Positions 24,683 through 43,371 are shown, counted from the first letter of the stretch. The stretch: 43,371 bases of DNA from Nitrososphaerales archaeon (GCA_030745655.1 JASLOE010000001.1:69351-112721), one strand, 5' to 3'. Numbers and translations are program-made. Notes: a model not told the origin generated them from the letters alone.

Positions 24683-24834
24683 AATGTATCTCCTACCTCC
24701 ACCGTGAGAGTGTTGACATAAATCCTTACCTACTGACCAATGTGTCTAAAAAAATACTGGAATTCAGATTTAGTATTAACCACCAAAAGACAAACGTTTA
24801 AAGCGAGAAATCTAGATGTGAAGGATGATTATGT

Positions 24835-25779
24835 TTGAAACTTCATGAAAAGAGCAATCAAAACGATTTGCAGGTCTCTTTTCAGCTGAAGAATTTCATA
24901 ATGAATAATCCAGTTATGTTAGCATCTGGTGTAGTTGGGGTTCATCCAGATATTCTTCCTCGTGTAGCTGAGGCTGGAGCAGGAGCAATGGTGACAAAAT
25001 CTATCAGTATGAATCCCAGAGAGGGGTATCGTAACCCTACTGTTATTGAAGTTGAAAGTGGTTATGTGAATGCTATTGGACTTTCCAATCCAGGTGTTAA
25101 TGCATTCTCAAAAGAGTTAGCAACCTTGAAGGAGAAACCTATACCCATAGTAGTAAGCTTATTTGGATCTACACCCACTGAATTCAGTGATATGATTTCA
25201 AGATTAGAATCTAGCTCAGTTGATTGTTACGAATTAAATCTATCTTGTCCCCATGTAGAGAAAGTTGGCCTTGAAGTAGGACAAGACCCTGAAGCAGTTT
25301 CATCAATTGTTAAAATTGCAAAAAAGTTTTCCTCAAGACCTGTTTTGATAAAAGTTTCGTCCAACATTACGGATATTGTAGAAATAGTTTCAGTCGCGAA
25401 AGATTCAGGGGCAGACGGAGTAACTGCAATAAACACAGTTCGAGCTATGGTTATTGATATAGAAACTGGTCGTCCCATACTCTCTAATAATGTAGGTGGA
25501 CTTTCTGGTCCAGCGGTCAAGGCAATAGCTATTCGTTGTGTCTACGAGATATCGCAGAAAGTTGATATTCCAATTATCGGATGTGGAGGAATAACCCATT
25601 GGAGTGATGCGATTGAGTTTTTTTTAGCTGGTGCTTCCTGTGTACAAGTTGGATCTGCGGTAGCATACAAAGGTCTTGATGTTTTGGGAGAAATAGTTGA
25701 TGGAATTAAGAAATATATGAACAATCATGAAATAAAAGAAATAGGTGAACTAGTTGGAAGATCGCATTCTTATCAATAA
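24835..25779 (+). CDS. pyrD: Dihydroorotate dehydrogenase (class 1B-like)
   Basis: MNNPVMLASGVVG, YELNLSCPH, NNVGGLSGPAVKAIA, GCGGITHWSDAIEF; TTG start. Confidence 0.9.
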   Translation: MKLHEKSNQNDLQVSFQLKNFIMNNPVMLASGVVGVHPDILPRVAEAGAGAMVTKSISMNPREGYRNPTVIEVESGYVNAIGLSNPGVNAFSKELATLKEKPIPIVVSLFGSTPTEFSDMISRLESSSVDCYELNLSCPHVEKVGLEVGQDPEAVSSIVKIAKKFSSRPVLIKVSSNITDIVEIVSVAKDSGADGVTAINTVRAMVIDIETGRPILSNNVGGLSGPAVKAIAIRCVYEISQKVDIPIIGCGGITHWSDAIEFFLAGASCVQVGSAVAYKGLDVLGEIVDGIKKYMNNHEIKEIGELVGRSHSYQ

Positions 25780-26578
25780 ACCACGAATTACTACGGTAAA
25801 ACAGGTACGTACCGAAACAAATGATATTTTAACACTTTTTGTTCAAGATAAAAGGTGTTCTGCAGCTTCTCCTGGACAATTTGCCATGATATGGGTTCCA
25901 GGTATAGGTGAAATTCCAATGAGTTTATCATTTATGGATAGTAAAGATACCTGTGGATTCACGGTTAAATCAATTGGAAGAACATCAAAAGCGCTTTTCA
26001 ATAAGAAAGAAAATGACCATATTGGAATTCGTGGTCCTTACGGAAATGGTTTTACTCCGATATCCGGTAATTGTTTACTTGTTGGAGGTGGAACAGGATT
26101 ATCTCCATTATTACCATTAACCAAGATTCTTGTAAAGAAAGGAGCTCGTGTGACTCTTATGTTGGCTGGTAAAAGTCGAAACGAAATACCTTTTCTTAAG
26201 GATGCCCAAGATTTGCTTTCGAATTCTAAACATAAAATCATAGTCACCACTGACGATGGCAGTTATGGTCTAAAAGGTGTAGCATCTGATCATGTAACAG
26301 TTCTACTTAAGAATGAAAAATATGATAAGCTATACACCTGTGGCCCAGAAGTCATGCTAAAAAAAATATTTACTTTAGCTGAAAAGAGGATTATTTCCAT
26401 CGAAGTTAGTCTTGAACGATATATAAAATGTGGCTTTGGACTCTGTGGAAGCTGCAGTATTGGTAGATACCTTCTTTGTCTTGATGGACCCGTTTTTTCA
26501 TCAAAACAGCTTAAAGAAATCTCAAATGATTTTGGGATTTCACGTCGCAATATTAACGGTGAAAAAACACCAATATAA
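25754..26578 (+). CDS. pyrK: Dihydroorotate dehydrogenase electron transfer subunit (PyrK-like)
   Basis: FNR-like fold, LLVGGGTGLSPL, CGFGLCGSCSIGRYLLCLDGPVF 2Fe-2S motif; overlaps pyrD end. Confidence 0.9.
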   Translation: MEDRILINKPRITTVKQVRTETNDILTLFVQDKRCSAASPGQFAMIWVPGIGEIPMSLSFMDSKDTCGFTVKSIGRTSKALFNKKENDHIGIRGPYGNGFTPISGNCLLVGGGTGLSPLLPLTKILVKKGARVTLMLAGKSRNEIPFLKDAQDLLSNSKHKIIVTTDDGSYGLKGVASDHVTVLLKNEKYDKLYTCGPEVMLKKIFTLAEKRIISIEVSLERYIKCGFGLCGSCSIGRYLLCLDGPVFSSKQLKEISNDFGISRRNINGEKTPI

Positions 26579-27739: not shown

Positions 27740-27775
27740 AAAAAAATATGGGAGAGATCCTTATTCAGGATCCTC
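27740..27775 (-). terminator. Putative intrinsic terminator downstream of the PQQ dehydrogenase gene
   Basis: On the minus strand: GAGGATCC-TGAATAA-GGATCTCTC hairpin (8 bp with one bulge) followed within a few nt by a run of 7 T. Confidence 0.5.
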
Positions 27776-27781
27776 TTTTAA

Positions 27782-30010
27782 CTATTCTTTTCGTGTGTAG
27801 AGTACTGCTGCTCCGATTATAGCTATAACAGCTACAGCTACTGCTGCATATGTTATGGTGCTAGATAATCCAACTTCTTCAGTCACTTCAGAAGTAACTG
27901 TTGTAGTTTGAGCTTCTGCTGTACTTGTTTGTGTTATGGTTTGTGCTGCGAGAGTACTTGTTACAGTTGTTGCAGATGTTGTAGTCATTGTAGTTGTTGA
28001 TGTTGCTGTAGTTGTTGATACTGAAGTTTGTGTAATTGTTGTAGCTGATGTTGTAGTAACTGTAGTTCTAGTTGTTTGTGTAACTGTAACTGTTTGAGCT
28101 GCTGCTTGCGCACGGTCATTTAGCCCTACAGCTATCAGTGTACCTGGAGTTGCTGATCCAAATCCGCCACTTGCGATTATAGCGAATATTTTCTGATCAC
28201 CAGCTGCGTCTGCACCTGTTGTTAAACCTGAACTCATTGGATTGCCTGTATTCATTTCTCTAAGTAGTTCTCCAGTTGCAGAGTTAAAGAATCTAATGAA
28301 GCCGTCAGTGAATCCTGCAAAGAGTATATCTGAGGTTGTTACTAGAGCAGAACGTTGTGTTCCGGTATCATAGTACCAGCTCCAAATTTCTTCACCTGAT
28401 TCGACGTTACGTGCAACTACGGATGAGTTAGATGGAAAACCACCTGCAGTTACTGTGATAGCTTGGTCTTCTTCCCATGGAGGTCTAACTGACTCAACAA
28501 TCTCCACCATAAGTCCTCCTGTATAATGGAATAGTACTCCGGTTTCTGGGTTGTACGCCTTGTCTGTTCCGAATAAGCCGTTACCCCAAGCTGGGAATAA
28601 GAGACATGGGTCTCCACAGTATGGACTACCATCAGGGGCATCCATAACTCTCATGTCATAGTTGCTAAATGGATCCATTTCACGATATCTTATACCACCG
28701 TTAAGGTATGTGATAGCGCCTGCTGCTTCAATTTGTCCTCTTGCTGCCATCTCTGATGGTACATCAATTAGATGTATGGGTTCTCCTGTTGCTGCATCAA
28801 GTATGTGTAAGAGTCCTTCCTTGCATCCCTTCATATAGATCTTACCTAGAGTTGGATGATCCGCAAGGATACCACTCCAGTTACAATCATAGTCATAGGG
28901 ATCTCGAGGCATAGGTTGACTCCACCATACTCGTTGACCAGTATCCATGTTTATTGCCATAAGTGTGCTTCCGTATAGTCTTGGTCCGGGAGTTTCACCG
29001 ATATAGGTGTAAGGTCCTTGGTTACCTGTTTGAGTATAAATTAAACCTGTGTCTTCATCTACAGGGAGCATTCCCCAGTTAGCTGTTACACCGCCCCAAA
29101 CACTTGGTGGTTCATTGGGGTTCGCCCAATCCCATTCCAACGTGTCTCCGGCTGCTGCAACGTCACTACAAGGAATATCTCTGAACCAACCGGTACTACA
29201 TTCTTGTAGAGCCCAGTCTTGAGTTAAGACACCCTGAGGTGGAAAACTGTATACTCGCCATAGAATTTCATGGGTATCCATATCGATACCGATTGTGGTG
29301 TGACGGAAGTCACCTGAGAACACCCAGCTGTGTTGTACACCTGGGAGTACATAGACGAATTGGTTACCTTTTTCATATGTTCCTATATTGGTCATTGAGA
29401 CACTTCCTTGTCTATAGTCATATAGATTTCCAGGTATATCGACACATAGGTCGTCTACCGAGAAAGCTGTTTCACCAGTGTCTATGTCTATGCCGTAGAA
29501 GTCACAGGCTAGACCAGATTTAAGGACGACATTGCCTGCTTCCCAAACACGGATACCGTGTAAGTGAGAAACAATTAATGCAAGGAAACCGCCATAGTTT
29601 ATAGGTAATCTGTCAGCTGCTTCAGTTAGGTTGACTGAGTAGTCATGTGACCAATTTTGTTGACCAGTTTCTGCATTCACTGAATATGTTCTTTGGTAGT
29701 TGGTTGTAAGAAAAACATTACCATCCAAAACTATTGGTGGTGTGTTTGCACCTTGACCAGGATTCAATAATCCCATACCTGCTGGTGCGCCATCGTTTCC
29801 TTCAAGTGGAAAGATCCACTTTACTTCAAGTGCATCGACATTGTTTGCTGATATTTGTGTCTGTGGACTATAGTTCTGTGCCCACGAATTTCCGTTTACG
29901 TACTGCCAGTCTCCACCATCTGAACCGGATGGAGCTGCAAATGCCATTGCCGGTAGTATTGTACTTAGTGATAGTATTGCTAGTGTTGTTAATAATTTGA
30001 AATTATACAT
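27782..30010 (-). CDS. PQQ-dependent (quinoprotein) dehydrogenase, secreted and C-terminally membrane anchored
   Basis: Signal peptide, beta-propeller repeats (AINMDTGQRVWW, NVESGEEIWSW, NSATGELLREM), TQTGNQGP, QPMPRDPYDYD, Thr/Ser-rich stalk and C-terminal TM helix followed by TRKE. Confidence 0.88.
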   Translation of the reverse strand: MYNFKLLTTLAILSLSTILPAMAFAAPSGSDGGDWQYVNGNSWAQNYSPQTQISANNVDALEVKWIFPLEGNDGAPAGMGLLNPGQGANTPPIVLDGNVFLTTNYQRTYSVNAETGQQNWSHDYSVNLTEAADRLPINYGGFLALIVSHLHGIRVWEAGNVVLKSGLACDFYGIDIDTGETAFSVDDLCVDIPGNLYDYRQGSVSMTNIGTYEKGNQFVYVLPGVQHSWVFSGDFRHTTIGIDMDTHEILWRVYSFPPQGVLTQDWALQECSTGWFRDIPCSDVAAAGDTLEWDWANPNEPPSVWGGVTANWGMLPVDEDTGLIYTQTGNQGPYTYIGETPGPRLYGSTLMAINMDTGQRVWWSQPMPRDPYDYDCNWSGILADHPTLGKIYMKGCKEGLLHILDAATGEPIHLIDVPSEMAARGQIEAAGAITYLNGGIRYREMDPFSNYDMRVMDAPDGSPYCGDPCLLFPAWGNGLFGTDKAYNPETGVLFHYTGGLMVEIVESVRPPWEEDQAITVTAGGFPSNSSVVARNVESGEEIWSWYYDTGTQRSALVTTSDILFAGFTDGFIRFFNSATGELLREMNTGNPMSSGLTTGADAAGDQKIFAIIASGGFGSATPGTLIAVGLNDRAQAAAQTVTVTQTTRTTVTTTSATTITQTSVSTTTATSTTTMTTTSATTVTSTLAAQTITQTSTAEAQTTTVTSEVTEEVGLSSTITYAAVAVAVIAIIGAAVLYTRKE
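27885..28095 (-). repeat. Low-complexity Thr/Val/Ser-rich coding stretch (stalk)
   Basis: TVTVTQTTRTTVTTTSATTITQTSVSTTTATSTTTMTTTSATTVTSTLAAQTITQTSTAEAQTTTVTS; visible GTTGTAGTTGATGTTG-type triplet redundancy in the DNA; limits approximate. Confidence 0.8.
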
Positions 30011-30299
30011 ATATTTTCAAACTCAGCACACTTTACGAGTATAGTATAAATGTTTCTCAGCAACTCACATAATATAAACAGGATACACCCAGAATAATAA
30101 ATAAATATTCAAAATAGACACATATATTTTGAAATATTTACATTGAAAGAATTGACTGTTACTAGTCAATTAAATTAAAAAGATGTAAGTTCAATATTTA
30201 TGATAAATCATTAGTAATAATTTTTGATAATTATTTAATATAATATGTTCTTAATATACTAATACTTCGTAAGCTTGGCATAGGACAGATAAATTTGCA

Positions 30300-31220
30300 T
30301 TGATTGAAGTAGAAAATTTGTCAAAGAAATACGGTAAAGTCAAAATTATCTATGATCTCAGCTTTAAAGTAGAGAAAGGGGAGGTTGTAGTGTTACTTGG
30401 ACCCAACGGTGCTGGGAAATCAACATTACTGAAATGTATATTAGGATTAGTGAGATACAATGGTAAAATCCGTGTAAATGGGTTAGATGTTAAGAAAGAA
30501 GGCAGAGAAATAAGGAGAAAGATTACCTACATTCCTCAGCAGTTCATTTTGTATCCTAATCTAACTGTGGAGGATAATTTGAAGTTTTATGCGAATATAA
30601 GGGGAATATCACAGAATACAGTGAACCAAAGTATTGAAAAGAGTAAACTTGAACATTTTGCAAATAAACGTACTAAAGAGCTTTCTGAAGGATTGCACCA
30701 GAGATTGATGCTTGCAATTGTAAGTTTGACAGATACTCCTATCCTGCTTTTTGATGAACCAACTTCAAATCTTGATTTTAAGAGAGTTTTGGAGTTTAAG
30801 GAGATGATAAAAGAGGAAGCAAAGAATGGAAAAACTATTCTTCTTTCAACTCATCTTCTTAGTGATATAAATGATATATCTGAAAAAGTGATTGTGATGA
30901 ATAATGGAAAATTTGTTTTTAGAGGGAATTCAGAAGATTTGTTGAAAAAAACGAATATGAAGACTGATATTACATTAACTATTCATGAGGAATTGAACAA
31001 TAAAACTAGGGCAAAAATCAAAGATCTGCTCCATAAAGCTGGAATTGAAAATGAATCTATAAAAAATGAATTTCTAACAATTTCAACCGAGGCTTCAAGA
31101 ATAATTTCTGTGTTAAAAGCTGTAGAAGAAGCTGGTTTGAAGATCAAAGATTTTAGGATTTCTGAACCGAGTTTAGCAAAGGCTTTCCTGGAGATTACTA
31201 ACGAAAGTGATGAAAGGTGA
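30300..31220 (+). CDS. ABC transporter ATP-binding protein (ABC-2/export type)
   Basis: LLGPNGAGKSTLLKCILGL Walker A, ELSEGLHQRLMLAI signature, ILLFDEPTSNLD Walker B. Confidence 0.92.
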   Translation: MIEVENLSKKYGKVKIIYDLSFKVEKGEVVVLLGPNGAGKSTLLKCILGLVRYNGKIRVNGLDVKKEGREIRRKITYIPQQFILYPNLTVEDNLKFYANIRGISQNTVNQSIEKSKLEHFANKRTKELSEGLHQRLMLAIVSLTDTPILLFDEPTSNLDFKRVLEFKEMIKEEAKNGKTILLSTHLLSDINDISEKVIVMNNGKFVFRGNSEDLLKKTNMKTDITLTIHEELNNKTRAKIKDLLHKAGIENESIKNEFLTISTEASRIISVLKAVEEAGLKIKDFRISEPSLAKAFLEITNESDER

Positions 31221-32059
31221 TGAGAGTGTCGATTTCTTCAATCCTAACAATAGCAAAGAAAGAGATTAAGGATTCTATTAGAAACAGATGGTTTCTGGTT
31301 TTATCCAGTATTTTCTTTCTACTTATTTTACAAATTCCTTACATAATACTGATGCTTCTCGGATTGTTTTCTTATGAGAATGTTCCTGGAAAAACCGGGA
31401 TATTTCTTGCTTATGCCATATCCCTTGGTGGATTGATTACTGTAATTGTAGGATCATTAAGCATAGTAAGTGAAAAAGAACAAGGGACTCTTTCATATCT
31501 TCTATCCCAACCAGTTAGGAAAATCGAAATCATTATTGGAAAATTCATGGGGTTACTTCTTGCTATTTCTTTGATGATGAGCATTGGGTTTGGGATTGCA
31601 ATGCTTCCTTCAATTGGAGAAGCTGAGATCAATAGTATTGGATTAGAGAATTTTGTATATGGTGTTGTGACAATGTTTGGGGCTACAGCAGTTATGCTTG
31701 GAATATCTTTAGCTATTTCAGTGGTATCTGGAAGTAAAACGATGGCGATATCTTTAGCTCTATTTATCTGGTTATTTTTCACGACAATATATGATAGTGG
31801 ATTCTTAGGAACAATGCTTATTGCGGCAGACGAAACACAAGCTTATTTCTATTTCATATTTCTAAATCCAATTGAAATTTCTGAAATACTTATGAATATG
31901 TTGTTAAACCCTATTTTAAATCCAAACCTTTCTGTAAACTTTATGATAAATTACTTTGGAATTGGTGGATCCTTTGAACCTCTTTCTTTGGCAATATTGG
32001 TTTGGGCTATTATACCTCTCGGATTTTCAGTTATAGAATTTTATTCAAGGGAATATTAA
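31217..32059 (+). CDS. ABC-2 type permease
   Basis: Multi-spanning; SEKEQGTLSYLLSQPVRKIEIIIGKFMG; 4-bp overlap with ATPase gene. Confidence 0.88.
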   Translation: MMRVSISSILTIAKKEIKDSIRNRWFLVLSSIFFLLILQIPYIILMLLGLFSYENVPGKTGIFLAYAISLGGLITVIVGSLSIVSEKEQGTLSYLLSQPVRKIEIIIGKFMGLLLAISLMMSIGFGIAMLPSIGEAEINSIGLENFVYGVVTMFGATAVMLGISLAISVVSGSKTMAISLALFIWLFFTTIYDSGFLGTMLIAADETQAYFYFIFLNPIEISEILMNMLLNPILNPNLSVNFMINYFGIGGSFEPLSLAILVWAIIPLGFSVIEFYSREY

Positions 32060-32066
32060 TCATAAA

Positions 32067-32864
32067 CTAGGTTGCCACATACTGTTTGGTTAATGAACCT
32101 TTTAGTGCCTCCACAGCTTTAACTACCGGTGAATCAGGAGCAAAATCTATTGGCGCTACTCTGGCCATATCTGCCTGTTCAATTGATTCATCGTAAGGAA
32201 TTGTAGCAATAATAGGGATTCCCAATTCAGCTGACTTCTTCTTAAGTAAATTATGTTCTATATTATTTTTCATTTTATTACCTACAATAAGCAGAGTCTT
32301 TACACCTAATTCTATTGAAAGATCTTTAATTCTTCGTGCTGTTTCGATGGATTGCATTCTCGGTTCAACTACACAAAGCATTGCATCTACCCCTCGTACT
32401 GTACCTCTTCCAAGATGCTCAAGTCCGGCTTCCATATCCATAATTATAGCTTCTTTTGCTGATACCATAAGATGTCTAACAAGAGCTTTAGCCAATGCGT
32501 TTGTTGGACACATACATCCAGCACCAGCTGATCTTACAGTCCCCATTACTAGAAGCCTGGTTCCATCTGGACCAGGCAATCCATATTTTTCAGCTATATC
32601 ACTAACGGTTGGATTTAGGCTAAATACTCCTCCTGAAGAGCCTGGGGCTACACCAGTCCTTTCTTCTATTAGTGAATGGTTTTCTGACAATGGAGTTATT
32701 TTTGAAGCAATATTGGTCGATATTCCAAGCGAGTAAGCAAGGTTCATTGCAGGATCAACATCTATCGCTAATGTTTTGTAACCTTCTCTTCCTAATTGTC
32801 TAGCGAGAGTACCAGTAATACTAGTCTTTCCTACACCGCCTTTACCTACTACTGCTAATTTCAT
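32067..32864 (-). CDS. cooC: CooC-type (MinD/ParA family) nickel-insertion ATPase, copy 1
   Basis: VGKGGVGKTSITGTLA, DVDPAMNLAYSLG, CMCPTNALAKALV (C-x-C), MDMEAGLEHLGRGT. Confidence 0.82.
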   Translation of the reverse strand: MKLAVVGKGGVGKTSITGTLARQLGREGYKTLAIDVDPAMNLAYSLGISTNIASKITPLSENHSLIEERTGVAPGSSGGVFSLNPTVSDIAEKYGLPGPDGTRLLVMGTVRSAGAGCMCPTNALAKALVRHLMVSAKEAIIMDMEAGLEHLGRGTVRGVDAMLCVVEPRMQSIETARRIKDLSIELGVKTLLIVGNKMKNNIEHNLLKKKSAELGIPIIATIPYDESIEQADMARVAPIDFAPDSPVVKAVEALKGSLTKQYVAT

Positions 32865-33646
32865 TTTGTGATTTCGCTTGTAGGTGCTGTAGGTATTTCG
32901 AGTTTCTTAATTAGTTCAGTTACACCTTTCAATGCTAATGATGACGCAGGTAGATTTGGGATAGCTTTACCATCTAAATCGAATTCTTGTATCAATGGAT
33001 CTTCAGGGATTACAGCAATGCATTCCAACCCAGAAGTTTTTTCAAGCTCCTTTACTTTATTAATGAATCTTGGAGGTATGTTATTCACAACTAGGTATGC
33101 TTTACGAATATTTGTGTTGAGAGTTTTGATTAATTCCTGAATTCGTTTGGCAGTTAATACACCTTTAGCAGTTGGATCAGTTACAACTAGCAGTATATCG
33201 ATATCCCTGGTTGTTCGCCTACTAAAATGTTCAAGTCCAGCTTCTGTGTCCAATATTATTAGTGGATATTTATCTGAAAGGTCATCCACCATTTTTCGAA
33301 GAAGATTGTTTACGTAACAATAGCATCCTGGGCCTTCAGCATTTCCCATAATGATGATATCATAGCCATCAAATTCTTCAACTGCGCTTTGGAATAGGTA
33401 GTTGAAGTAATCCTCTTTTCTTTGATTTGGACCAAGATTATCTTTATTTTTCAGCAACATTTCACGTGCTTTTCCAACTGACATTGTAACATCAACTCCT
33501 AGAGCTTCACTCAGATTGGAATTTGGGTCAGAGTCAACACCAAGTATTGGTTTTCCTGCATAGTTTTTTAAAAGATGCACAAGCAAAGCTGACACCGTAG
33601 TTTTCCCTGTACCTCCTTTCCCGGATATTGCTATACTAAAAGTCAT
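32861..33646 (-). CDS. cooC: CooC-type nickel-insertion ATPase, copy 2
   Basis: ISGKGGTGKTTVSALLV, DSDPNSNLSEALGV, GPGCYCYVNNLLR (C-x-C), LDTEAGLEHFSRRT. Confidence 0.85.
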   Translation of the reverse strand: MTFSIAISGKGGTGKTTVSALLVHLLKNYAGKPILGVDSDPNSNLSEALGVDVTMSVGKAREMLLKNKDNLGPNQRKEDYFNYLFQSAVEEFDGYDIIIMGNAEGPGCYCYVNNLLRKMVDDLSDKYPLIILDTEAGLEHFSRRTTRDIDILLVVTDPTAKGVLTAKRIQELIKTLNTNIRKAYLVVNNIPPRFINKVKELEKTSGLECIAVIPEDPLIQEFDLDGKAIPNLPASSLALKGVTELIKKLEIPTAPTSEITK

Positions 33647-33676
33647 TTTTGATATTTCTCCTTCATGATTAAGTTT

Positions 33677-33880
33677 TTAGTGTTGATGATTAATGGGTGA
33701 AAGGATTAATCTTTCAGCTTCCACATCTACTTCTATGATTTCTGCATTATCCACAGTAACTTGGTTGCCAAGAATTGGTTTGAGGATTATTTTACCATCA
33801 GTTTTTTTGGCGTATAATATATCTTCAGCAACAGTTTCTTCATGATTTTCTTTCTTTAAGTAAACTTTAAACTCACACAT
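33677..33880 (-). CDS. cooT: CooT-like small protein
   Basis: 67 aa starting MCEFKVYL with Cys at position 2, overall CooT-like pattern, adjacent to cooC genes. Confidence 0.7.
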   Translation of the reverse strand: MCEFKVYLKKENHEETVAEDILYAKKTDGKIILKPILGNQVTVDNAEIIEVDVEAERLILSPINHQH

Positions 33881-33962
33881 ATAATTTCTCTTCCATATTA
33901 TTATATAAAATTGAAATATTTATAGATATGCCAAGGCGTCATTAATTTAGGTTGTAGGAGGA

Positions 33963-34850
33963 TTGAATACTAAATATTTACCATATCTATTCATTATTCC
34001 TACAGTAGTTGCTCTATTAATTGTGGAAGCTTACCCGGTAGTATATTCTCTTTATCTAAGTGTAACTGAATTTAGTACATTAACTACTGAACCAGTATTC
34101 ATTGGATTTGATAATTATGTGAGAATGATATATGATGAAAACTTCTGGATATCTCTCAGAGTTACATTACTCTATGTCTTTGGATCAGTAAGCCTAGCTT
34201 TTGTATTAGGTTTATCATTTGCAGTGCTTCTTTTTAGAGATATTGAATATAGAAAGCGTCTTCAAACTGTATTAATTCTACCTATTGCTATTTCGCCTTT
34301 GATAGCTGGTGTCTTCTTTTCGCCAGCTGCTATATGGGATGATATCAATGTAGTTCTCAAATTTGTCCTTGGGCTCCCTATGATAGATGTATACAATGCC
34401 AATTTTGCTTTCTCTTTAGTAGTTGTAGCAGATGCGTGGCTTTGGACACCACTTTTTATGCTTGTATTTCTGAGTGTGTTGCAATCAATTCCAAAGGAGA
34501 CCTATGAAGCAGCTGAAATTCATGGAGCATCAAATTTTCAGACTTTCAGGCGAGTAACTTTTCCTTTGATAATACGGTCTCCGGTTATTTTCATAATAAT
34601 CGCGTTAAGATCCATAGATGCATTCAGGTCATTTGAGATTCCTTTTACATGGGCAGGATGGATTGGGGCTGAGAGTTTGGGTTCACCGATTGATACTTTG
34701 AGTCTTTTCATGTATAAACTGTTAATTTTTCCAGCATATGAATCTCCGTTTTCGTATATTGCAACAATTGCACTTACTATGCTGATGATAAGTCTAGTAA
34801 TAACAACAATTCTCTTGAAGTTTAGCGATATGCTCTGGGAGGAGAAGTAA
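33963..34850 (+). CDS. Carbohydrate-type ABC importer permease (MalF/UgpA-like)
   Basis: Six-TM pattern; EAAEIHGASNFQTFRRVTFPLI (EAA loop); TTG start with GGAGGA upstream. Confidence 0.9.
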   Translation: MNTKYLPYLFIIPTVVALLIVEAYPVVYSLYLSVTEFSTLTTEPVFIGFDNYVRMIYDENFWISLRVTLLYVFGSVSLAFVLGLSFAVLLFRDIEYRKRLQTVLILPIAISPLIAGVFFSPAAIWDDINVVLKFVLGLPMIDVYNANFAFSLVVVADAWLWTPLFMLVFLSVLQSIPKETYEAAEIHGASNFQTFRRVTFPLIIRSPVIFIIIALRSIDAFRSFEIPFTWAGWIGAESLGSPIDTLSLFMYKLLIFPAYESPFSYIATIALTMLMISLVITTILLKFSDMLWEEK

Positions 34851-34853
34851 ATA

Positions 34854-35729
34854 TTGGATGAGGGATATAGGAAAACTCTAATGAAAAGTAAACGTTACAT
34901 TGTTTACGTTCTAGTTCTTCTCTGGGTTTTGTGGCCTATTGCAATAATGGTTCTTGAAAGCTTCCGTATTGACTTAAGCCCATTACTTTCAGGAAGAGGT
35001 GTCCAATGGATTGCAGGTGTTCCATTCTATAGTGGTGGATTCCGTCCTAGTACTATTAATTATTTCGAAGCTTTTTCCTTTGTTGCATTTCCCAGATTAA
35101 TGGTCAATAGCACCATAATTGCACTAACAAGTGTAGTATCATGTCTTTTGATAGGTACACCTACAGCTTATGCACTAGCTAGGTTCAAGTTCAGGGGAAA
35201 GAACTTACTTCAATTTTCATTAATGGCTTTAAGAACCATTTCACCTTTTGCAGTTATTGTGCCCTTCTATTGGATTTATGGACAACTGAATCTTTGGAAT
35301 ACATATTATGGTATGATGATTGTGTATTGGGTGATAAACCTCCCAGTTGTTGTTTGGATGATGCGGGGCTTCTTCAATGACATACCTAAAAATATCTGGG
35401 AAACAGCAACCCTTTACGGAGCATCTGAATTCAGAATTTTCAGAAAAATTGCATTGCCATTGGTTGTACCAGGTTTGATTGCTACAGTAATATTTGCCTT
35501 TGTATTAACATGGAATGAATTCCTTTTTGCATCTATCTTAACCGGTCCAGAAACTGGAACTGTTACAAAAGGAATATGGTTTGGGATGGGTGAGGCTGGT
35601 GGATTCAAAGTGGTGGAATGGGATGATATCAATACGGGTGGTGTATTGGCTTTTATCCCCGCAATGGCATTAGTCTTGGTTATCAGACGTTATCTGGTGC
35701 ATGGCTTCACTATGGGTTCTTATCGCTAA
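34854..35729 (+). CDS. Carbohydrate-type ABC importer permease (MalG/UgpE-like)
   Basis: ETATLYGASEFRIFRKIALPLVVPGL (EAA loop); TWNEFLFA. Confidence 0.9.
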   Translation: MDEGYRKTLMKSKRYIVYVLVLLWVLWPIAIMVLESFRIDLSPLLSGRGVQWIAGVPFYSGGFRPSTINYFEAFSFVAFPRLMVNSTIIALTSVVSCLLIGTPTAYALARFKFRGKNLLQFSLMALRTISPFAVIVPFYWIYGQLNLWNTYYGMMIVYWVINLPVVVWMMRGFFNDIPKNIWETATLYGASEFRIFRKIALPLVVPGLIATVIFAFVLTWNEFLFASILTGPETGTVTKGIWFGMGEAGGFKVVEWDDINTGGVLAFIPAMALVLVIRRYLVHGFTMGSYR

Positions 35730-36819
35730 GTGATTCAGCACCGTTCTCACTTAAGAATAGATGGGTTCTATTCCAATCAAATAAGAGATACATATGGTCA
35801 CCTACACTAACCTCAAACCCTGGTTTTGTCTTCACTCGCATTAGAGTGTCCACAACTTTTAAGGAGATTATTAGACTATCTCCCATTGGTTCTAGAAGAT
35901 GAACATCAGATTCACAAGTGAAGTTCGAGATTTGTTTCTTACTTATCTCAATGTCTTCCGGACGAACACCCAAAGTGAATTGAGTTCCATTCTTTTGATC
36001 CTTTAACAACTCAATAAGATTCTTGGGAGATTGTGGAGCAAAACATGACGCTTCAATAGCTCTAGTCCCTTTCTCATCAATAATTTTGGAGTTAATAAGG
36101 TTCATTGGAAGACTTCCTACAAAACTTCCAGACCAGACATCTTTAGGATGTTCATAGATATCTTCAGGAGAACCTAACTGGACCAACTTTCCGTATCGCA
36201 TAAGTGCAATTCTATTAGACATAGTCATAGCTTCAGTTTGATCATGAGTTACAAGGAGAAGTGTAGTTTTTACATCTCGTTGAAGCTCCTTCAACTCAGC
36301 CCGTAAATATGCTCTAGTTTTAGCATCTACATTCGATAGTGGTTCGTCCATTAATAATACATCAGGTTTTCTCACAATTGCCCTGCCCACTGCAACTCGT
36401 TGTTGTTCACCACCACTTAACGCTCTGGGTTTACGTTCCATGAGGTCAGTCAATCGTAGAAGCTCGGCGATTTCTTTTACTCTTTCAGCAGTCTTCTCTT
36501 CAGGAGTTTTTCTAACAACAAGTGGAAAACCTATGTTTTCAGCAACCGTCATATGTGGAAAAAGAGCATAGCTTTGAAAAACCATAGCTACATTTCTATC
36601 TCTTGGGGGCACATCATTAACTACTTTATCGTTAAAGAGGATTCGTCCTTCTGATAGAGGCTCTAATCCAGCTATCAGTCGAAGAAGTGTTGTTTTCCCG
36701 CATCCTGAAGGACCAAGAATTGACATGAATTCTTCATCGTTTATCTCTAAGTTGAATTTATCAACAGCTGAGGTTCCATTGAATCGTTTACTAACGCCAT
36801 CTAGAATAACCTTAACCAT
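35710..36819 (-). CDS. MalK/UgpC-type ABC importer ATPase
   Basis: GPSGCGKTTLLRLIAGLEPLSEGRI, LSGGEQQRVAVGRAIVRKPDVLLMDEPLSNVDAK, C-terminal TOBE LGVRPEDI. Confidence 0.93.
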   Translation of the reverse strand: MVKVILDGVSKRFNGTSAVDKFNLEINDEEFMSILGPSGCGKTTLLRLIAGLEPLSEGRILFNDKVVNDVPPRDRNVAMVFQSYALFPHMTVAENIGFPLVVRKTPEEKTAERVKEIAELLRLTDLMERKPRALSGGEQQRVAVGRAIVRKPDVLLMDEPLSNVDAKTRAYLRAELKELQRDVKTTLLLVTHDQTEAMTMSNRIALMRYGKLVQLGSPEDIYEHPKDVWSGSFVGSLPMNLINSKIIDEKGTRAIEASCFAPQSPKNLIELLKDQKNGTQFTLGVRPEDIEISKKQISNFTCESDVHLLEPMGDSLIISLKVVDTLMRVKTKPGFEVSVGDHMYLLFDWNRTHLFLSENGAESLSDKNP

Positions 36820-36876
36820 TTTTTTAACTCATCTTATTTTTTATTACAAGGATTCATAATATTGAAATGCTCTATT

Positions 36877-37335
36877 TTATGGATTTACGACAATTTCACC
36901 TAATTCAATTGAATGGTCGACTAACTGATTTACGGTTTCTCCACGGTAGTCGACGTATGTGTATGTTTCCTCAGGGCGTGGATCTAAGAAGATGAATGTT
37001 CCAGATTTTGTAGGTGTAAACTCTATAGTAGTGGATTCAAATGGTGGGATGGGTTCGGTTTCAATATTTAATTCAGGTATCGAGAATTGGTGTGATTCGA
37101 TATCGTCATTATTAACTACAACGAGTATAACGGGTACACCTACAGTGAATTCGATATGATCCGGGTCCCAGCTCCGCTTTTCGTTTTGAGGAAGAATTAA
37201 ACCATCTTCAACTGGTGGATTTGTAGTTACCAATCGAATAATTAAAGATGGATTTGAAGCTGCTAAAAAGTAGTAACCGACAATTATGCCTAATACTGAA
37301 ATAGCAATAACAATCATCAGTTTTCTATTTTTCAA
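36877..37335 (-). CDS. Membrane-anchored cupredoxin-fold-like protein, copy A
   Basis: N-terminal TM then QNEKRSWDPDHIEFTVGVPVILVVVNNDDIESHQFSIPEL...KSGTFIFLD; no Cys in the C-terminal loop. Confidence 0.65.
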   Translation of the reverse strand: MKNRKLMIVIAISVLGIIVGYYFLAASNPSLIIRLVTTNPPVEDGLILPQNEKRSWDPDHIEFTVGVPVILVVVNNDDIESHQFSIPELNIETEPIPPFESTTIEFTPTKSGTFIFLDPRPEETYTYVDYRGETVNQLVDHSIELGEIVVNP

Positions 37336-37405
37336 GGTATTAATGTTAGTTCGATTGTGTAGATAGATAATTCTTTCGCTTCAGAAAGAACACATGTAGA
37401 TAGAA

Positions 37406-37879
37406 TTATTCCTCTACAATGAATAGGCCTGGTGGAACACATACGAATTCTTCCTCATCACCTTGGGGTTCACCTTCTTGTTCATTTTTACATAATTCAG
37501 ATTCAAAATCTGGGGCAAGTGATTCTATAAACACGAACGAACCTACATCATCAACAGTGAAAGTGACTACCTCCCGTTCATTTGCTCCAGGTATATCTCC
37601 AGTTTCTACACCTAAATCAGGAATTGCAAGTCTGTGTTCGTCGTCGTCATCTCCATTTACAACTGTAAGTTCAATTTTATCTCCAACTTTCACGTAAACT
37701 ACATTTGGAACCCACTCTTTCTTTTCATTTTGAGTTTCTGTAAGTTTTATCGTAATTGGCGTTATATCTCCAGATGGATCATCTGTATCTGTTGACTCTC
37801 CGGTTGTTACATAGTATCCAATTAAGGCAATTATGATAATACCAATCCCTACACCGAAGAGAAATGAAGTTTTAACCAA
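37406..37879 (-). CDS. Membrane-anchored cupredoxin-fold-like protein, copy B
   Basis: N-terminal TM then QNEKKEWVPNVVYVKVGDKIELTVVNGDDDDEHRLAIPDLGVETGDI...DVGSFVFIE; tandem paralog of copy A. Confidence 0.68.
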   Translation of the reverse strand: MVKTSFLFGVGIGIIIIALIGYYVTTGESTDTDDPSGDITPITIKLTETQNEKKEWVPNVVYVKVGDKIELTVVNGDDDDEHRLAIPDLGVETGDIPGANEREVVTFTVDDVGSFVFIESLAPDFESELCKNEQEGEPQGDEEEFVCVPPGLFIVEE

Positions 37880-37983
37880 AGTCCAACGGATTTAATGAAT
37901 AATATGGGATACTTAACTATTATTATGAACAGAAAATGTTTATGAAAAAGTTTATGTGATGTACATATAGGAGGACAATTGAT

Positions 37984-39096
37984 ATGGCTACTGTTTCAAT
38001 TCAAAAACTTGCCAAATACTATAAGGATATTCAAGCAATTGAAAATATTAGTCTAGATATACAAGATAAGGAGTTTCTGACTATCCTTGGTCCTTCAGGA
38101 TGCGGGAAAACAACACTTCTTCGACTGATAGCTGGATTAGAAGTACCTAGTAATGGAGATATTTTAATTGATGGAAATTCTGTTCTTGAAGTACCTATCC
38201 GAGAGAGGGACATAGCAATGGTTTTTCAGCGATATTCATTGTACAACCACATGACGGTGTACGATAACTTAGCTTTCCCACTAAAAATGCGAAAAGTATC
38301 TGAACAGGATACTAAGCGTAGAGTAAAAAATGCAGCTGAACTCCTTGGATTGGATAAGCTGCTAGACCGAAAACCAGGAAAACTTAGCGGAGGAGAGCAA
38401 CAACGTGTTGCCCTTGGTAGAGCAATAGTTCGAGAACCTAAAGTATTCTTGATGGATGAACCATTAACTTTTCTGGATCCAAAGCTTAGAACACAAATGC
38501 GAGTGGAAATCAAAACACTTCAAAGAAGATTGGGGGTTACAACAATCTATGTAACGCATGATCAATCAGAAGCTATGATTATGTCTGATAGGATAGCGCT
38601 TCTGAAGAATGGAGTTTTACAGCAGGTAGGTACACCAGATGAAATATATGAAAAACCAAGTAATACATTTGTTGCGGGTTTTCTAGGTTCGCCGGCTATA
38701 AACCTCCTAGATTGCAGTTATGTTGAGAAAGGGGGGAAGACTTTTCTTGATTTGGAGTTCTTTAAGCTAGATATTACAGATCAAAAGGATATAATGAATA
38801 AAAAGAGAAATGGAAGTGAACTTATACTTGGAATAAGACCTGAAGATATATCATTGGCACATGAAAAAAGTGCAGATACCATAGAATCAGAAGTTTATGT
38901 AATTGAACCACTAGGCTCTGAGAGCAATATTATTGTTAAGCTTCCCACATATAAAGCCTTTAAATTTGGAATGCATGACGTAGTCAATGTTAAAGTTAAC
39001 GCTGGAATGAATGTCAAGATTGGTGATAAGGTGCGGTTGAAATTTAATAAGCATAATATTCATATTTTCAAAAAGTCTGGAGAAATTATTCTGTAA
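37984..39096 (+). CDS. MalK/UgpC-type ABC importer ATPase, second copy
   Basis: GPSGCGKTTLLRLIAGLEVPSNGDI, LSGGEQQRVALGRAIVREPKVFLMDEPLTFLDPK, LGIRPEDISL; AGGAGG upstream of ATG. Confidence 0.93.
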   Translation: MATVSIQKLAKYYKDIQAIENISLDIQDKEFLTILGPSGCGKTTLLRLIAGLEVPSNGDILIDGNSVLEVPIRERDIAMVFQRYSLYNHMTVYDNLAFPLKMRKVSEQDTKRRVKNAAELLGLDKLLDRKPGKLSGGEQQRVALGRAIVREPKVFLMDEPLTFLDPKLRTQMRVEIKTLQRRLGVTTIYVTHDQSEAMIMSDRIALLKNGVLQQVGTPDEIYEKPSNTFVAGFLGSPAINLLDCSYVEKGGKTFLDLEFFKLDITDQKDIMNKKRNGSELILGIRPEDISLAHEKSADTIESEVYVIEPLGSESNIIVKLPTYKAFKFGMHDVVNVKVNAGMNVKIGDKVRLKFNKHNIHIFKKSGEIIL

Positions 39097-39131
39097 ATAT
39101 AATCGTTTTACGCCGGCGAACAACTTCTAAA

Positions 39132-39881
39132 TTAAAGGTTTTCATCCAAATAACGTAGTAGATCTGAAAGGGCTCTTAAATCACGATGAAGAAGAGAAAT
39201 GCCTGAAGCTCTAACTGATGGACTTTCAGGTCGATATAATCGACTTGTTTTCGGTTCTTCAGCTCTATCGATTAGAGGTTGGATATTTGTGCGTTCAGTA
39301 TCAAGATACTGAAATAGAATTGAATGCGGATTGAAAGTATCCACTCCTTCCCCTCTGATAAGGGAGCCGATATCAGCTGATGGTGAAATAACCACTGAAA
39401 CCTTAATTTCCTCAATATATCCTGATGCTGCATAAGCAATATTTCCGCCGAGTTGAGCGCCGACTATACCGATTCTGTCTATAATCACATCATTTCTATT
39501 TCTTAGATAAGTAACTGCTCCTTCAATGTCACTAATTAATGTGTCATAATATTCTTCTGATTTGTCGACATTCTGGCTTTCTCCGAAACCACGTATATCG
39601 TATGCAAGTATTGCATAACCTCTTTCAACAAAGTCGGATATAAATGGATTCCAATCTTGTCTATCTCCATCGAATTCGTGGGAAAGTATAACTGGTTTAT
39701 ATGGTGCCTCTAATTCTTTAGGAACATACCATGTAGCACTGATCTTTATTCCATCTGAAGCTAAAAATGATACTTCTTCAGAGATATAGGGTTTTTCTTC
39801 TGTGGGATTTATGAGATACCATCCAGTGATAGCAGAAATAATTACAATTGATACGAGGATGTAGGGCTGAATCCTTGCCAA
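39132..39881 (-). CDS. Membrane-anchored alpha/beta-hydrolase-fold protein, apparently degenerate catalytic site
   Basis: N-terminal hydrophobic anchor; VILSHEFDGDRQDW, YAILAYDIRGFGES, IGIVGAQLGGNIAYA elbow with Gln at the expected Ser position. Confidence 0.75.
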   Translation of the reverse strand: MARIQPYILVSIVIISAITGWYLINPTEEKPYISEEVSFLASDGIKISATWYVPKELEAPYKPVILSHEFDGDRQDWNPFISDFVERGYAILAYDIRGFGESQNVDKSEEYYDTLISDIEGAVTYLRNRNDVIIDRIGIVGAQLGGNIAYAASGYIEEIKVSVVISPSADIGSLIRGEGVDTFNPHSILFQYLDTERTNIQPLIDRAEEPKTSRLYRPESPSVRASGISLLHRDLRALSDLLRYLDENL

Positions 39882-39921
39882 TTCATCAATGATTTAGAAA
39901 GTGGTCTTATTAAATAATTAT

Positions 39922-40218
39922 CTATTGAATAAGGATAGGTGCCGTATATATTGACAGAAGGATTATCAGTATTAATACGGTGAATAATATTGTAATTTGC
40001 ATTAGAGCTCTGCTTTTTTTAGCTTCATCAGGCATTGTGCTTCCTAGAAAGTAGATTAAAGCCCCTAATATCAATATAAAAAAACCATTTGTGTATAATG
40101 AAAGATTAATTGGTTGTAGAATAGATATAAGACCTGCAAGTGATAATATCAATCCTAGCTGCTCAATCCTGAGTTTTATGCGCTTAAAATCTGTGATAAG
40201 TGGTTCTTGTCCAGTCAT
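39922..40218 (-). CDS. Small membrane protein
   Basis: 98 aa with about three hydrophobic segments; abuts the downstream-numbered permease gene (40219). Confidence 0.6.
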   Translation of the reverse strand: MTGQEPLITDFKRIKLRIEQLGLILSLAGLISILQPINLSLYTNGFFILILGALIYFLGSTMPDEAKKSRALMQITILFTVLILIILLSIYTAPILIQ

Positions 40219-41106
40219 CTATTTCATCTCCTTTCGAATAGTTCCTGCAGAGAAACCGATTAGTAAGTAACGTTGAATTAGGAATGCAAAAATGAAGGAT
40301 GGAATCATATGAATTATGGACATAGATGCTAATGGTCCAGGTGTCAATACACCTACTCGAAGCAAATCGTCAAAGAAGTCTGCAAGGAAGACAAATGTAG
40401 CAGCATTAGTTTCAGTTAGTGATAGGGTAAAGATAAAATCATTCCATGCCACCGCAAAAGCGAAGACTGCAGCTACAGCCAATCCTACCTTTATTTGAGG
40501 TAAGGTTATCCTGAGAAGTACATCGAATGTGGAAGCTCCATCAACTTTAGCTGCTTCTTCTGAAGTCTTAGGGAATCCGTCCAGGAAGTTTTTCAGTATC
40601 CATACTGTAAGTGGTAGAGCAAATGTTGCATATATGAGAGAGAGTCCGATATGAGTATCGTGAAGACCAATTTTTTGGAATATTTCAAATAGTGCAGGTG
40701 TAAAAACTATTGGTGTGACGGCGTGAAGAGTAAGCATATAGGCCAACAGAGGTGTTCCACCTATTATTTTAAATCGAGATAATGAGTAGGCAAAAGTTAG
40801 GCCTGCAGCTAAAGCAATAAACGTACTCATTAATGCAATCAAGATGCTATTTCCAAGATACCTTGGGAATTGACTTGCTATACCTGCAAATATTGGTTCA
40901 TTAGTGTGTGGATCCATTATTTCTGCACCAAACATATAATTCTGTAAAGTAGGAGTAAAAAGGAAGACTGGAGTAGTTGAAAGAGTAGCCTCTGTAGGTT
41001 TGACGGATGTAAGAGCTATCCAAGATAAGGGGAATAGAACTATAATTAGCCAGAAGCCGATTATTACAAATCTCAGATTCTTTGCTTTGAAAATTGAATT
41101 ACTCAT
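40219..41106 (-). CDS. Carbohydrate-type ABC importer permease (MalG-like), second set
   Basis: SEEAAKVDGASTFDVLLRITLPQIKVGL (EAA loop); AWNDFIFTL. Confidence 0.9.
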   Translation of the reverse strand: MSNSIFKAKNLRFVIIGFWLIIVLFPLSWIALTSVKPTEATLSTTPVFLFTPTLQNYMFGAEIMDPHTNEPIFAGIASQFPRYLGNSILIALMSTFIALAAGLTFAYSLSRFKIIGGTPLLAYMLTLHAVTPIVFTPALFEIFQKIGLHDTHIGLSLIYATFALPLTVWILKNFLDGFPKTSEEAAKVDGASTFDVLLRITLPQIKVGLAVAAVFAFAVAWNDFIFTLSLTETNAATFVFLADFFDDLLRVGVLTPGPLASMSIIHMIPSFIFAFLIQRYLLIGFSAGTIRKEMK

Positions 41107-42019
41107 TTTGCTCCACTTTCCACAAATATCGAAGGTATGTGTACACTAGAACCAAAGAAATAATCACCATTATTGTTGCGGTAGTTGTCATTTCACTTGT
41201 TTTAAACGCCCGGAAAGCTAAGGTATACAGATATGAAGGCAACATATCTATTTCTAGTGGGTTAGGTCCCAGAGGTGGAGGAACATCCAACCACTCTCTA
41301 ATTACCTCCCAAGTTCTCAAAGCGTCCGCTAACCTAAAAATAAGGGCTAGAAACAAGAAAGGTTTAGCGTAAGGAAATATGACATATCTAAATCGGGCCC
41401 ACCAACCTGCACCATCGATATCAGCTGCCTCAAGGACTGATTTTGGCACAGATGATAAACCACCAACTATCATGAGCATTACAAAAGGTGTCCATGTCCA
41501 AGCGTCGACCATCACTATGGACAAGAAAGCATCTTTTCCATATCCATCAAATGGTATTTTTAGCACTCCGAGCAGATAATTGATAAATCCGATATCGGGT
41601 CTAAACATAACCACCTTAAAGATCATCGCCGTAATTTCTGGCGCTATCAACATCGGTAGGACACAAATTGTTAATACAAGTCTATGACCTCTAAATCGCT
41701 CGGAAAGAACTAATGCAAGACTTAAACCTAAAATGAATTCAATTGAAACAACAGTTACAGCGAACTTGGCAGTATTCTGAAAACGAAGCCAGATATCTGG
41801 ATGAGTCATCATATTTTCATAATTTTGGAATCCGACAAAATCAGGAGCTCTTCCAAATACTTGAACTGAGTAATCATAGAAACTTATTCCAAATGTCCAT
41901 AAGTATGGTATAATGGCGAAAACTGTTAACAGAATTAAAGTCGGTAAAATGAGTAGCCACTTCAAATGTTTATCTTTTATGTTGAATGAAATAGCCAAGG
42001 GAATTCTCGTCTTTAACAT
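41099..42019 (-). CDS. Carbohydrate-type ABC importer permease (MalF-like), second set
   Basis: LEAADIDGAGWWARFRYVIFPYAKPF (EAA loop); 8-bp overlap with the MalG-like gene. Confidence 0.9.
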   Translation of the reverse strand: MLKTRIPLAISFNIKDKHLKWLLILPTLILLTVFAIIPYLWTFGISFYDYSVQVFGRAPDFVGFQNYENMMTHPDIWLRFQNTAKFAVTVVSIEFILGLSLALVLSERFRGHRLVLTICVLPMLIAPEITAMIFKVVMFRPDIGFINYLLGVLKIPFDGYGKDAFLSIVMVDAWTWTPFVMLMIVGGLSSVPKSVLEAADIDGAGWWARFRYVIFPYAKPFLFLALIFRLADALRTWEVIREWLDVPPPLGPNPLEIDMLPSYLYTLAFRAFKTSEMTTTATIMVIISLVLVYTYLRYLWKVEQNE

Positions 42020-42082
42020 CTAAATTTCTTTATTGATATATATTTATCCATAAAGAAATTATTCTATGAAAAATGAAATCAA

Positions 42083-43371
42083 TTAAATTGATAAAAGGTC
42101 TTTTAATGCAGCATCTTCTGTTTTTAGTTTAATGCCTTCATTTTCTCTTTTATCAATATATGATGAGATTATTTGTTTTATTTTCGTTTGATCTAGTTTT
42201 CCCCAAGGAGTTTCAGGTTCAAGGAATCTTTTGGGAATTCTTATATTGCTCATCTCAAATCCTTCCTGAACCTTGTATTTCAGGAAATTATGTGTAATTT
42301 CTTTACCGAGAGCCATAAGGCCTTCTGGAGAGTAATCCATATCTAATGCTTTGAGTATTTTAGAGATAGTTTCCTTTGAATATGCTTTTCTGGCAAAGTA
42401 GCAGATACCTAAGGAGTACATTATGTAGAGCCAATCTTCATTTTCTATTAAATAATCTGCCATTTCGTCGGCATTGAATGGTTTCCCGAGTTGAGTTTGG
42501 TCATATGAGTATCCGGCATTGCTAAGATGAGAATGCCTCGCACCTACTACTGTCCCAGCTATCGTTCCGTATCCTGTCATGTATCCTGGAGGACCGTTTC
42601 CACCTAAAGATACTGAGAAGTCTTTACCACCATATTTCTCAGCAGCAGCATCTATACCTCTTGCCAAGGCGACATAAAGAGGAGATTTTGCATTTGCAAT
42701 ATTCTTCAGCATAATACCGTATGTTTCAGCATCACCCCATGTCGGTTTTAGTTTCTGAGTGTCTTTTTCTGTTATTATCTTATTTTCAAAGGCTTCTGTG
42801 ACCCAACCAAGAACATTACCAGCTGTCATTGCGTCTAACCCTAGGTCTTCACAGATGTCTATTAGATGGAGTAATCCGTCGTAATCGCTTATACAAAGAT
42901 TAGAACCTAATGCATACATTGGCTCATAGTTGTATGGGATCAATTTACTTTCTTTGAAAACTTCTGGCCGTCCTCGTTCATGTGCTGGTTTGAACTCATT
43001 TTTTATGTCAGCCAAATGGACACATGCAATTGGGCAGCTTGCACATGATATCTTTCGTTCCAGTCTTGATTCAGCTATTACTTCACCAGATATCTTATCA
43101 GCATCTTCAAACCGAGTCTTTTTGAAGTTCTTGGTTGGGAGAGCACCAAGTTCATTTAGCATGAGGACATTTGAAGGGGTTCCATAATCATGGTACTTCA
43201 CCATAATATCAGTACCAACTATGTCATTGTAAGTCTGCTCATAGAATTTCTTGACACTTAGTGCATTTTCTAAAGTAATGCCTTCTGAGCCACGTGCAGA
43301 TATTGCTTTAAGTTTCTTACTCCCAAAGATAGCTCCTAGACCTAAGCGACCAAAATGATGGTATCTATCCA
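42083..43371 (-). CDS. Aldehyde ferredoxin oxidoreductase (AOR family), 5' end beyond window
   Basis: CASCPIAC, GNGPPGYMTGYG, GLDAMTAGNVLGW; frame stays open past the tracked start (43204) to the edge, encoding DRYHHFGRLGLGAIFGSKKLKAI. Confidence 0.92.
   Translation of the reverse strand, partial: DRYHHFGRLGLGAIFGSKKLKAISARGSEGITLENALSVKKFYEQTYNDIVGTDIMVKYHDYGTPSNVLMLNELGALPTKNFKKTRFEDADKISGEVIAESRLERKISCASCPIACVHLADIKNEFKPAHERGRPEVFKESKLIPYNYEPMYALGSNLCISDYDGLLHLIDICEDLGLDAMTAGNVLGWVTEAFENKIITEKDTQKLKPTWGDAETYGIMLKNIANAKSPLYVALARGIDAAAEKYGGKDFSVSLGGNGPPGYMTGYGTIAGTVVGARHSHLSNAGYSYDQTQLGKPFNADEMADYLIENEDWLYIMYSLGICYFARKAYSKETISKILKALDMDYSPEGLMALGKEITHNFLKYKVQEGFEMSNIRIPKRFLEPETPWGKLDQTKIKQIISSYIDKRENEGIKLKTEDAALKDLLSI

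Follow-up and report, generated by a model that had tools for sequence, protein, structure and literature searches.

The closest described systems to the importers considered here are the CUT1 systems (MalFGK2-E, the archaeal GlcTUV, and the Thermococcus MalFGK with its trehalose/maltose-binding protein), with which they share the permease pair, a MalK ATPase with OB/TOBE domain and a substrate-binding protein (SBP) of the MalE type. On the side of the host, heterotrophic marine Thaumarchaeota have been described as carrying many PQQ dehydrogenases alongside a sugar transporter of the ABC type (PMC7300363). We will refer to the whole stretch of DNA that was analysed (43,371 nucleotides, G000:C11:69351-112721) as “the window”, and to its two importer core sets as set 1 and set 2. 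It is probable, at roughly 0.6, that they would be ordinary type I, CUT1-like ABC importers of sugar type in an uncultured heterotrophic Nitrososphaerales archaeon, set 1 working with an SBP of its own, set 2 sharing that protein, and an alpha/beta-hydrolase-fold protein (ABH) acting as an accessory of set 2; judged by family, the imported substrate would be a carbohydrate.

Host genome and gene content of the window

The assembly containing the window (G000) comprises 0.9 Mb in 65 contigs and is 88.75% complete. Several PQQ dehydrogenases are encoded in it, and in this respect, as in its sugar-type ABC transporter genes, it resembles the lineage mentioned above; the two importer sets are clustered here, however, and identity with the transporter of that paper is not implied. 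We infer that the organism belongs to, or stands close to, the heterotrophic marine Thaumarchaeota. The relatives compared include the Nitrososphaerales MAG ETNP2_MAG_84 from the same genus (G001), a member of another genus (G002) and a groundwater Thaumarchaeota MAG (G004), besides G003; completeness ranges from 61 to 89% for G000, G001 and G004, and is 95% for G002. Permeases of dipeptide type and bacterial-looking secreted proteins also occur on contig C8 of G000 (L006); these permeases were set aside for their bacterial look, the contig being probably a contaminant.

An earlier note, made from the sequence of the window alone, had described two complete importer core sets, i.e., two MalF/MalG pairs and two MalK ATPases. 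All ten genes of that note were confirmed at their coordinates, and Pfam upheld the gene content. The features relevant to the argument are the following:

77-bp repeat, 27741..27817, no strand assigned: 3' end of a PQQ-dehydrogenase gene (blastn, genome search)
ABC ATPase gene, 30300..31220, plus strand: in G001 and G003 its orthologue stands beside the SBP gene in divergent orientation
MalF1, 33963..34850, plus strand: set 1 permease; Pfam BPD_transp_1, 39.9 bits; orthologues in G001-G004 at 67-83%
MalG1, 34854..35729, plus strand: set 1 permease; BPD_transp_1, 68.6 bits; NCBIfam match to archaeal GlcU-like proteins, below cut-off
MalK1, 35710..36819, minus strand: set 1 ATPase; ABC_tran and TOBE_2 above cut-off
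Cup1, 36877..37335, minus strand: N-terminally anchored cupredoxin-fold protein; Cupredoxin_1, 32.6 bits, passing the cut-off
Cup2, 37406..37879, minus strand: N-terminally anchored cupredoxin-like protein; Cupredoxin_1, 23.0 bits, below cut-off
MalK2, 37984..39096, plus strand: set 2 ATPase; ABC_tran, OB_MalK and TOBE_2 all above cut-off
ABH, 39132..39881, minus strand: anchored alpha/beta-hydrolase-fold protein; Hydrolase_4/AXE1, several alpha/beta-hydrolase Pfam models passed
TM98, 39922..40218, minus strand: 98-residue membrane protein between MalG2 and ABH
MalG2, 40219..41106, minus strand: set 2 permease; BPD_transp_1, 45.3 bits
MalF2, 41099..42019, minus strand: set 2 permease; BPD_transp_1, 59.6 bits; orthologues only in G001, G002 and G004
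AOR (aldehyde ferredoxin oxidoreductase family), 42083..43371, minus strand: AFOR_C, 229.7 bits; 5' end cut by the contig end

Both sets have the composition of a CUT1 importer. The four permeases all pass the Pfam cut-off for BPD_transp_1; the ATPase of set 1 is of the MalK type, with intact motifs and an OB/TOBE domain (the OB_MalK match of MalK1, 24.1 bits, lies just under the cut-off of 27), and that of set 2 is likewise MalK-type, Walker A, Q-loop, signature, Walker B and H-loop being kept in both. The two permease pairs are mutually only about 31% identical, and the sets behave as separable modules in relatives: MalK1 accompanies MalF1-MalG1 in G002 (contig C12) and G003 (C76), and MalK2 accompanies MalF2-MalG2 in G004 (C21) without MalK1. 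In the ATPase tree, MalK1 is placed, with weak support, beside the family f14 ATPase of set 1, and MalK2 forms a supported clade of its own comprising the four genomes carrying set 2.

No SBP is encoded within window positions 33677-42083, so that the absence reported by the earlier note holds locally. That note had also considered, as the simpler alternative, that binding proteins are encoded elsewhere, possibly just beyond AOR. The first part applies to set 1, as described below; as for the second, contig C11 (112,721 bases) stops at the right edge of the window, where the AOR gene is truncated, and the region beyond it is therefore unreadable in G000. AOR is close to set 2 in G002 and G004, and away from it in G001; the small genes that separate MalF2 from AOR in the former two genomes are, by eye, a ParB-like gene and one for a membrane protein, with no SBP among them. 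On the other side of the importers, positions 32067-33880 encode two CooC-like ATPases and CooT (nickel insertion for CO dehydrogenase), with an ABC-2 exporter pair on one side and set 1 on the other, and G001 shares this arrangement; the stretches that were read showed no evident gene for CO dehydrogenase itself.

Set 1 and a binding protein at a contig end

A family search of the whole assembly detected an SBP_bac_1 protein of 500 residues (E 5.9e-27) on contig C33 of G000, 144 bp from the contig end. It belongs to the maltose family, bears a twin-arginine (Tat-type) signal, and has the trehalose/maltose-binding protein 1eu8 as its closest solved structure (E 2.6e-21); orthologues at 64-70% are present in G001, G002 (two copies), G003 and G004. 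In G001 the orthologue (24380-25873) is situated 3.8 kb from MalF1 within the same cluster, the order being SBP, the divergent ABC ATPase with an ABC-2 permease, two CooC-like genes, CooT, MalF1, MalG1, MalK1 and Cup1. On contig C12 of G002 it is found immediately before MalF1-MalG1 in the same orientation, about 1 kb away, and the permeases are followed by MalK1, Cup1 and a homologue of Cup2. Because of this linkage in relatives, set 1 is assigned, by its sequence, as a CUT1-like importer of sugar type whose predicted receptor is the 500-residue SBP; the system would thus consist of MalF1-MalG1-MalK1 with Cup1 and a Tat-exported, MalE-type receptor encoded on C33. The absence of an SBP is local, not genomic, and the idea that both importers go without one was overturned for set 1 by an SBP gene lying in the same cluster in two genomes. 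Against this assignment, SBP and set 1 are on separate contigs in G000 itself, and the possible link runs through a repeat.

The layout of the contig ends bears on that link. C33 ends with a 77-bp stretch that recurs unchanged at window positions 27741-27817, where a PQQ-dehydrogenase gene has its 3' end (blastn); contig C65 terminates in 57 bp of this sequence, and a diverged copy is found on contig C22 of G000. A shared stretch at a contig end is the typical outcome of k-mer assemblers at repeats, and paralogous PQQ-dehydrogenase genes seem to break the assembly. The genes of G001 matching C33 lead straight into the orthologue of the window gene at 30300, and it is plausible from this arrangement that C33 connects to the window immediately to the left of that position, in which case the SBP would be about 6.3 kb from MalF1. 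However, window positions 1-28353 show 97.6% DNA identity to contig C22 of G001, which favours the window's own left junction and argues against the C33 join, and positions 30222-42231 are only 69-82% identical to contig C44 of G001. Either C22 of G001 would have been misbinned from the window's species, or a contig would be chimeric within the PQQ-dehydrogenase gene. A false anomaly is removed, since set 1 has an SBP, and the example illustrates that an operon may appear receptor-less where contigs break off at repeated PQQ-dehydrogenase genes. As a separate observation, contig C65 of G000 also encodes a fusion of a MoeA-like protein with a periplasmic-binding-like domain, which has a weak SBP_bac_1 match (L004).

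Set 2, its ancestry and its likely receptor

Of 60 relatives, only G001, G002 and G004 were found to have a MalF2 orthologue (74-77%). MalF2-MalG2-TM98-ABH form a tight operon whose order is kept in all three, in company with MalK2 and Cup2-like genes, and no SBP adjoins set 2 in any of them (the assemblies of G001 and G004 being incomplete); for this set, the reported lack of a neighbouring binding protein appears to hold. Nothing relevant on SBP-less MalFGK importers was found in the literature. The missing neighbour in every genome with set 2 could be read as decay, i.e., an importer that lost its SBP and no longer imports; nonetheless, MalF2 remains 74-77% identical across two genera, the frames are intact and all MalK2 motifs are kept, so this reading is very improbable.

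The nearest importers in other families were sought by scanning 398 genomes of the phylum with a MalF2 profile. An SBP adjoins the permeases in all six of those examined (L131-L136; SBP_bac_1 confirmed by Pfam in five), their homologues of MalF2 and MalG2 being 33-39% identical. TM98 has a homologue in four of these operons too (97.6% probability by profile comparison): the order is SBP-MalF-MalG-MalK-TM98-MalK' in L132, L133 and L136, and TM98 follows the second MalK in L135; it was not found in the operons of L131 and L134. Homologues within SBP-bearing operons thus indicate that TM98 has long been associated with importers of this kind. The operons of other families keep an SBP and two unlike MalK, in contrast to set 2, which has one intact MalK and ABH. 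Since the nearest importers elsewhere in the phylum retain their SBP neighbour, the simplest history is that the ancestor of set 2 probably had one as well, and that the window's family lost this neighbour and acquired ABH. The two unlike ATPases of L131-L136 are of interest in themselves: the signature motif is degenerate in one partner in all five MalK pairs aligned (e.g., DFG, SVAD, TPGE), and the H-loop histidine is missing (TPD/TSD) in the other partner in four of the five, which points to type I importers whose ATPases are heterodimers having one degenerate site.

As to the present receptor of set 2, MalF/MalG pairs are one more than the 500-residue SBPs in each genome, namely two against one in G000, G001 and G004, and three against two in G002. 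Because of these counts, set 2 most likely draws its substrate from the same 500-residue SBP in trans, so that MalF2-MalG2-TM98-ABH with MalK2 and Cup2 would share the receptor of set 1. Two points weigh against this sharing: one SBP serving two permease pairs of about 31% identity would be unusual, and an SBP of set 2 could be missing from G000, G001 and G004, which are incomplete; yet G002 reaches 95%. A dedicated SBP at an unlinked site, missed by the searches or by incomplete assemblies, is accordingly the alternative to be weighed here. Binding proteins and permeases do lie on separate contigs in the four genomes examined from family f14 (G039, G046, G053, G060), as set 1 and its SBP do in G004, and the incomplete and fragmented state of G000 would accommodate such a gene. 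On the contrary, the other SBP_bac_1 matches examined in G002 are proteins of 311-382 residues of other types, most of them beside their own permeases (one weak match, a 684-residue frame, was left out of this survey), and only the C24a and C24b types among them are present in all four set 2 genomes. C24a, which apart from the 500-residue SBP is the only exported type common to these genomes, was rejected as a receptor of set 2, since in G002 and G004 it comes with a fused permease and ATPase of its own; no further conserved candidate for set 2 turned up across these incomplete assemblies. Overall, an unlinked dedicated SBP appears rather unlikely, and sharing in trans is preferred.

Putative accessory proteins and comparison with known importers

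ABH is the component most specific to set 2. A profile built from its four orthologues gave strong matches in exactly the four MalF2 genomes out of 300 in the order, two further matches being weak and generic, and the gene co-occurs perfectly with the set 2 operon. The degenerate catalytic residues previously noticed are real: the nucleophile serine is replaced by Gln143 in all four orthologues, at an alignment position where the solved esterase relatives that were aligned have serine, and ABH consequently lacks the nucleophile of the GxSxG elbow that characterises serine alpha/beta-hydrolases. Similarity to solved enzymes is limited to the N-terminal two thirds of the protein. An AlphaFold model was not used, as its pLDDT of 46, from four sequences, was too poor for a pocket to be inspected. 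ABH is, by these features, a conserved, membrane-anchored and apparently inactive protein tied to set 2.

A receptor, a dock for the SBP or another accessory role would all fit such a protein, and any accessory or receptor role of ABH, TM98 or Cup2 in set 2 is hypothetical. The boldest version, that ABH, with or without TM98 and Cup2, replaced the standard SBP of the ancestor as receptor, could draw on its N-terminal hydrophobic anchor, the nucleophile lost in four of four orthologues, the position of the gene directly behind MalG2-TM98 and its occurrence only with set 2, which no SBP adjoins. TM98, however, is present in four related operons that have an SBP and is thus no replacement for one; ligand binding by ABH is purely hypothetical, and we know of no alpha/beta-hydrolase receptor of an ABC importer. 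We regard this version as improbable, and favour ABH as an inactive membrane-anchored accessory that might, for instance, dock the shared SBP or shape its interface with set 2. Should ABH bind either solute or SBP, type I importers would gain a receptor or docking partner of unexpected fold.

The cupredoxin-fold proteins accompany both sets. Their genes adjoin MalK genes in G001, G002, G003 and G004, Cup2 homologues being located beside MalK2 or MalK1, and one copy is near the second SBP of G002; the co-occurrence with the importers that the earlier note had asked about was thus observed for the cupredoxin genes in G001-G004, and for ABH with set 2 only. Of the two tandem anchored cupredoxin-fold proteins it had proposed, Cup1 is secured by Cupredoxin_1 and Cup2 stays below the cut-off. 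The AlphaFold model of Cup1 (pLDDT 79.5) matches nitrosocyanin and Cupredoxin_1 structures in Foldseek; the fold is the same and the sequence match weak. Unlike those proteins, all six Cup1 sequences lack the cysteine ligand, and an invariant Asp118 follows the strand on which it would be expected; His82, His141 and Glu144 are also invariant, and no cysteine is present in any of the six. Cup2 has one invariant histidine at the copper site and no cysteine there, and the His-Cys-His-Met ligand set of type 1 blue copper proteins is thus found in neither. A metal-binding accessory role would be a guess.

In comparison with the known CUT1 systems, the importers of the window do not reach the NCBIfam equivalog cut-offs for the Mal, Ugp and Glc systems. 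They differ in that the SBP is unlinked in G000, and in that set 2 is without an SBP alongside and has TM98 and ABH instead. What remains is a small anomaly, a sugar-type operon whose neighbouring SBP was probably lost and a conserved pseudo-hydrolase gained, and set 2 represents a modest departure from a known kind of importer.
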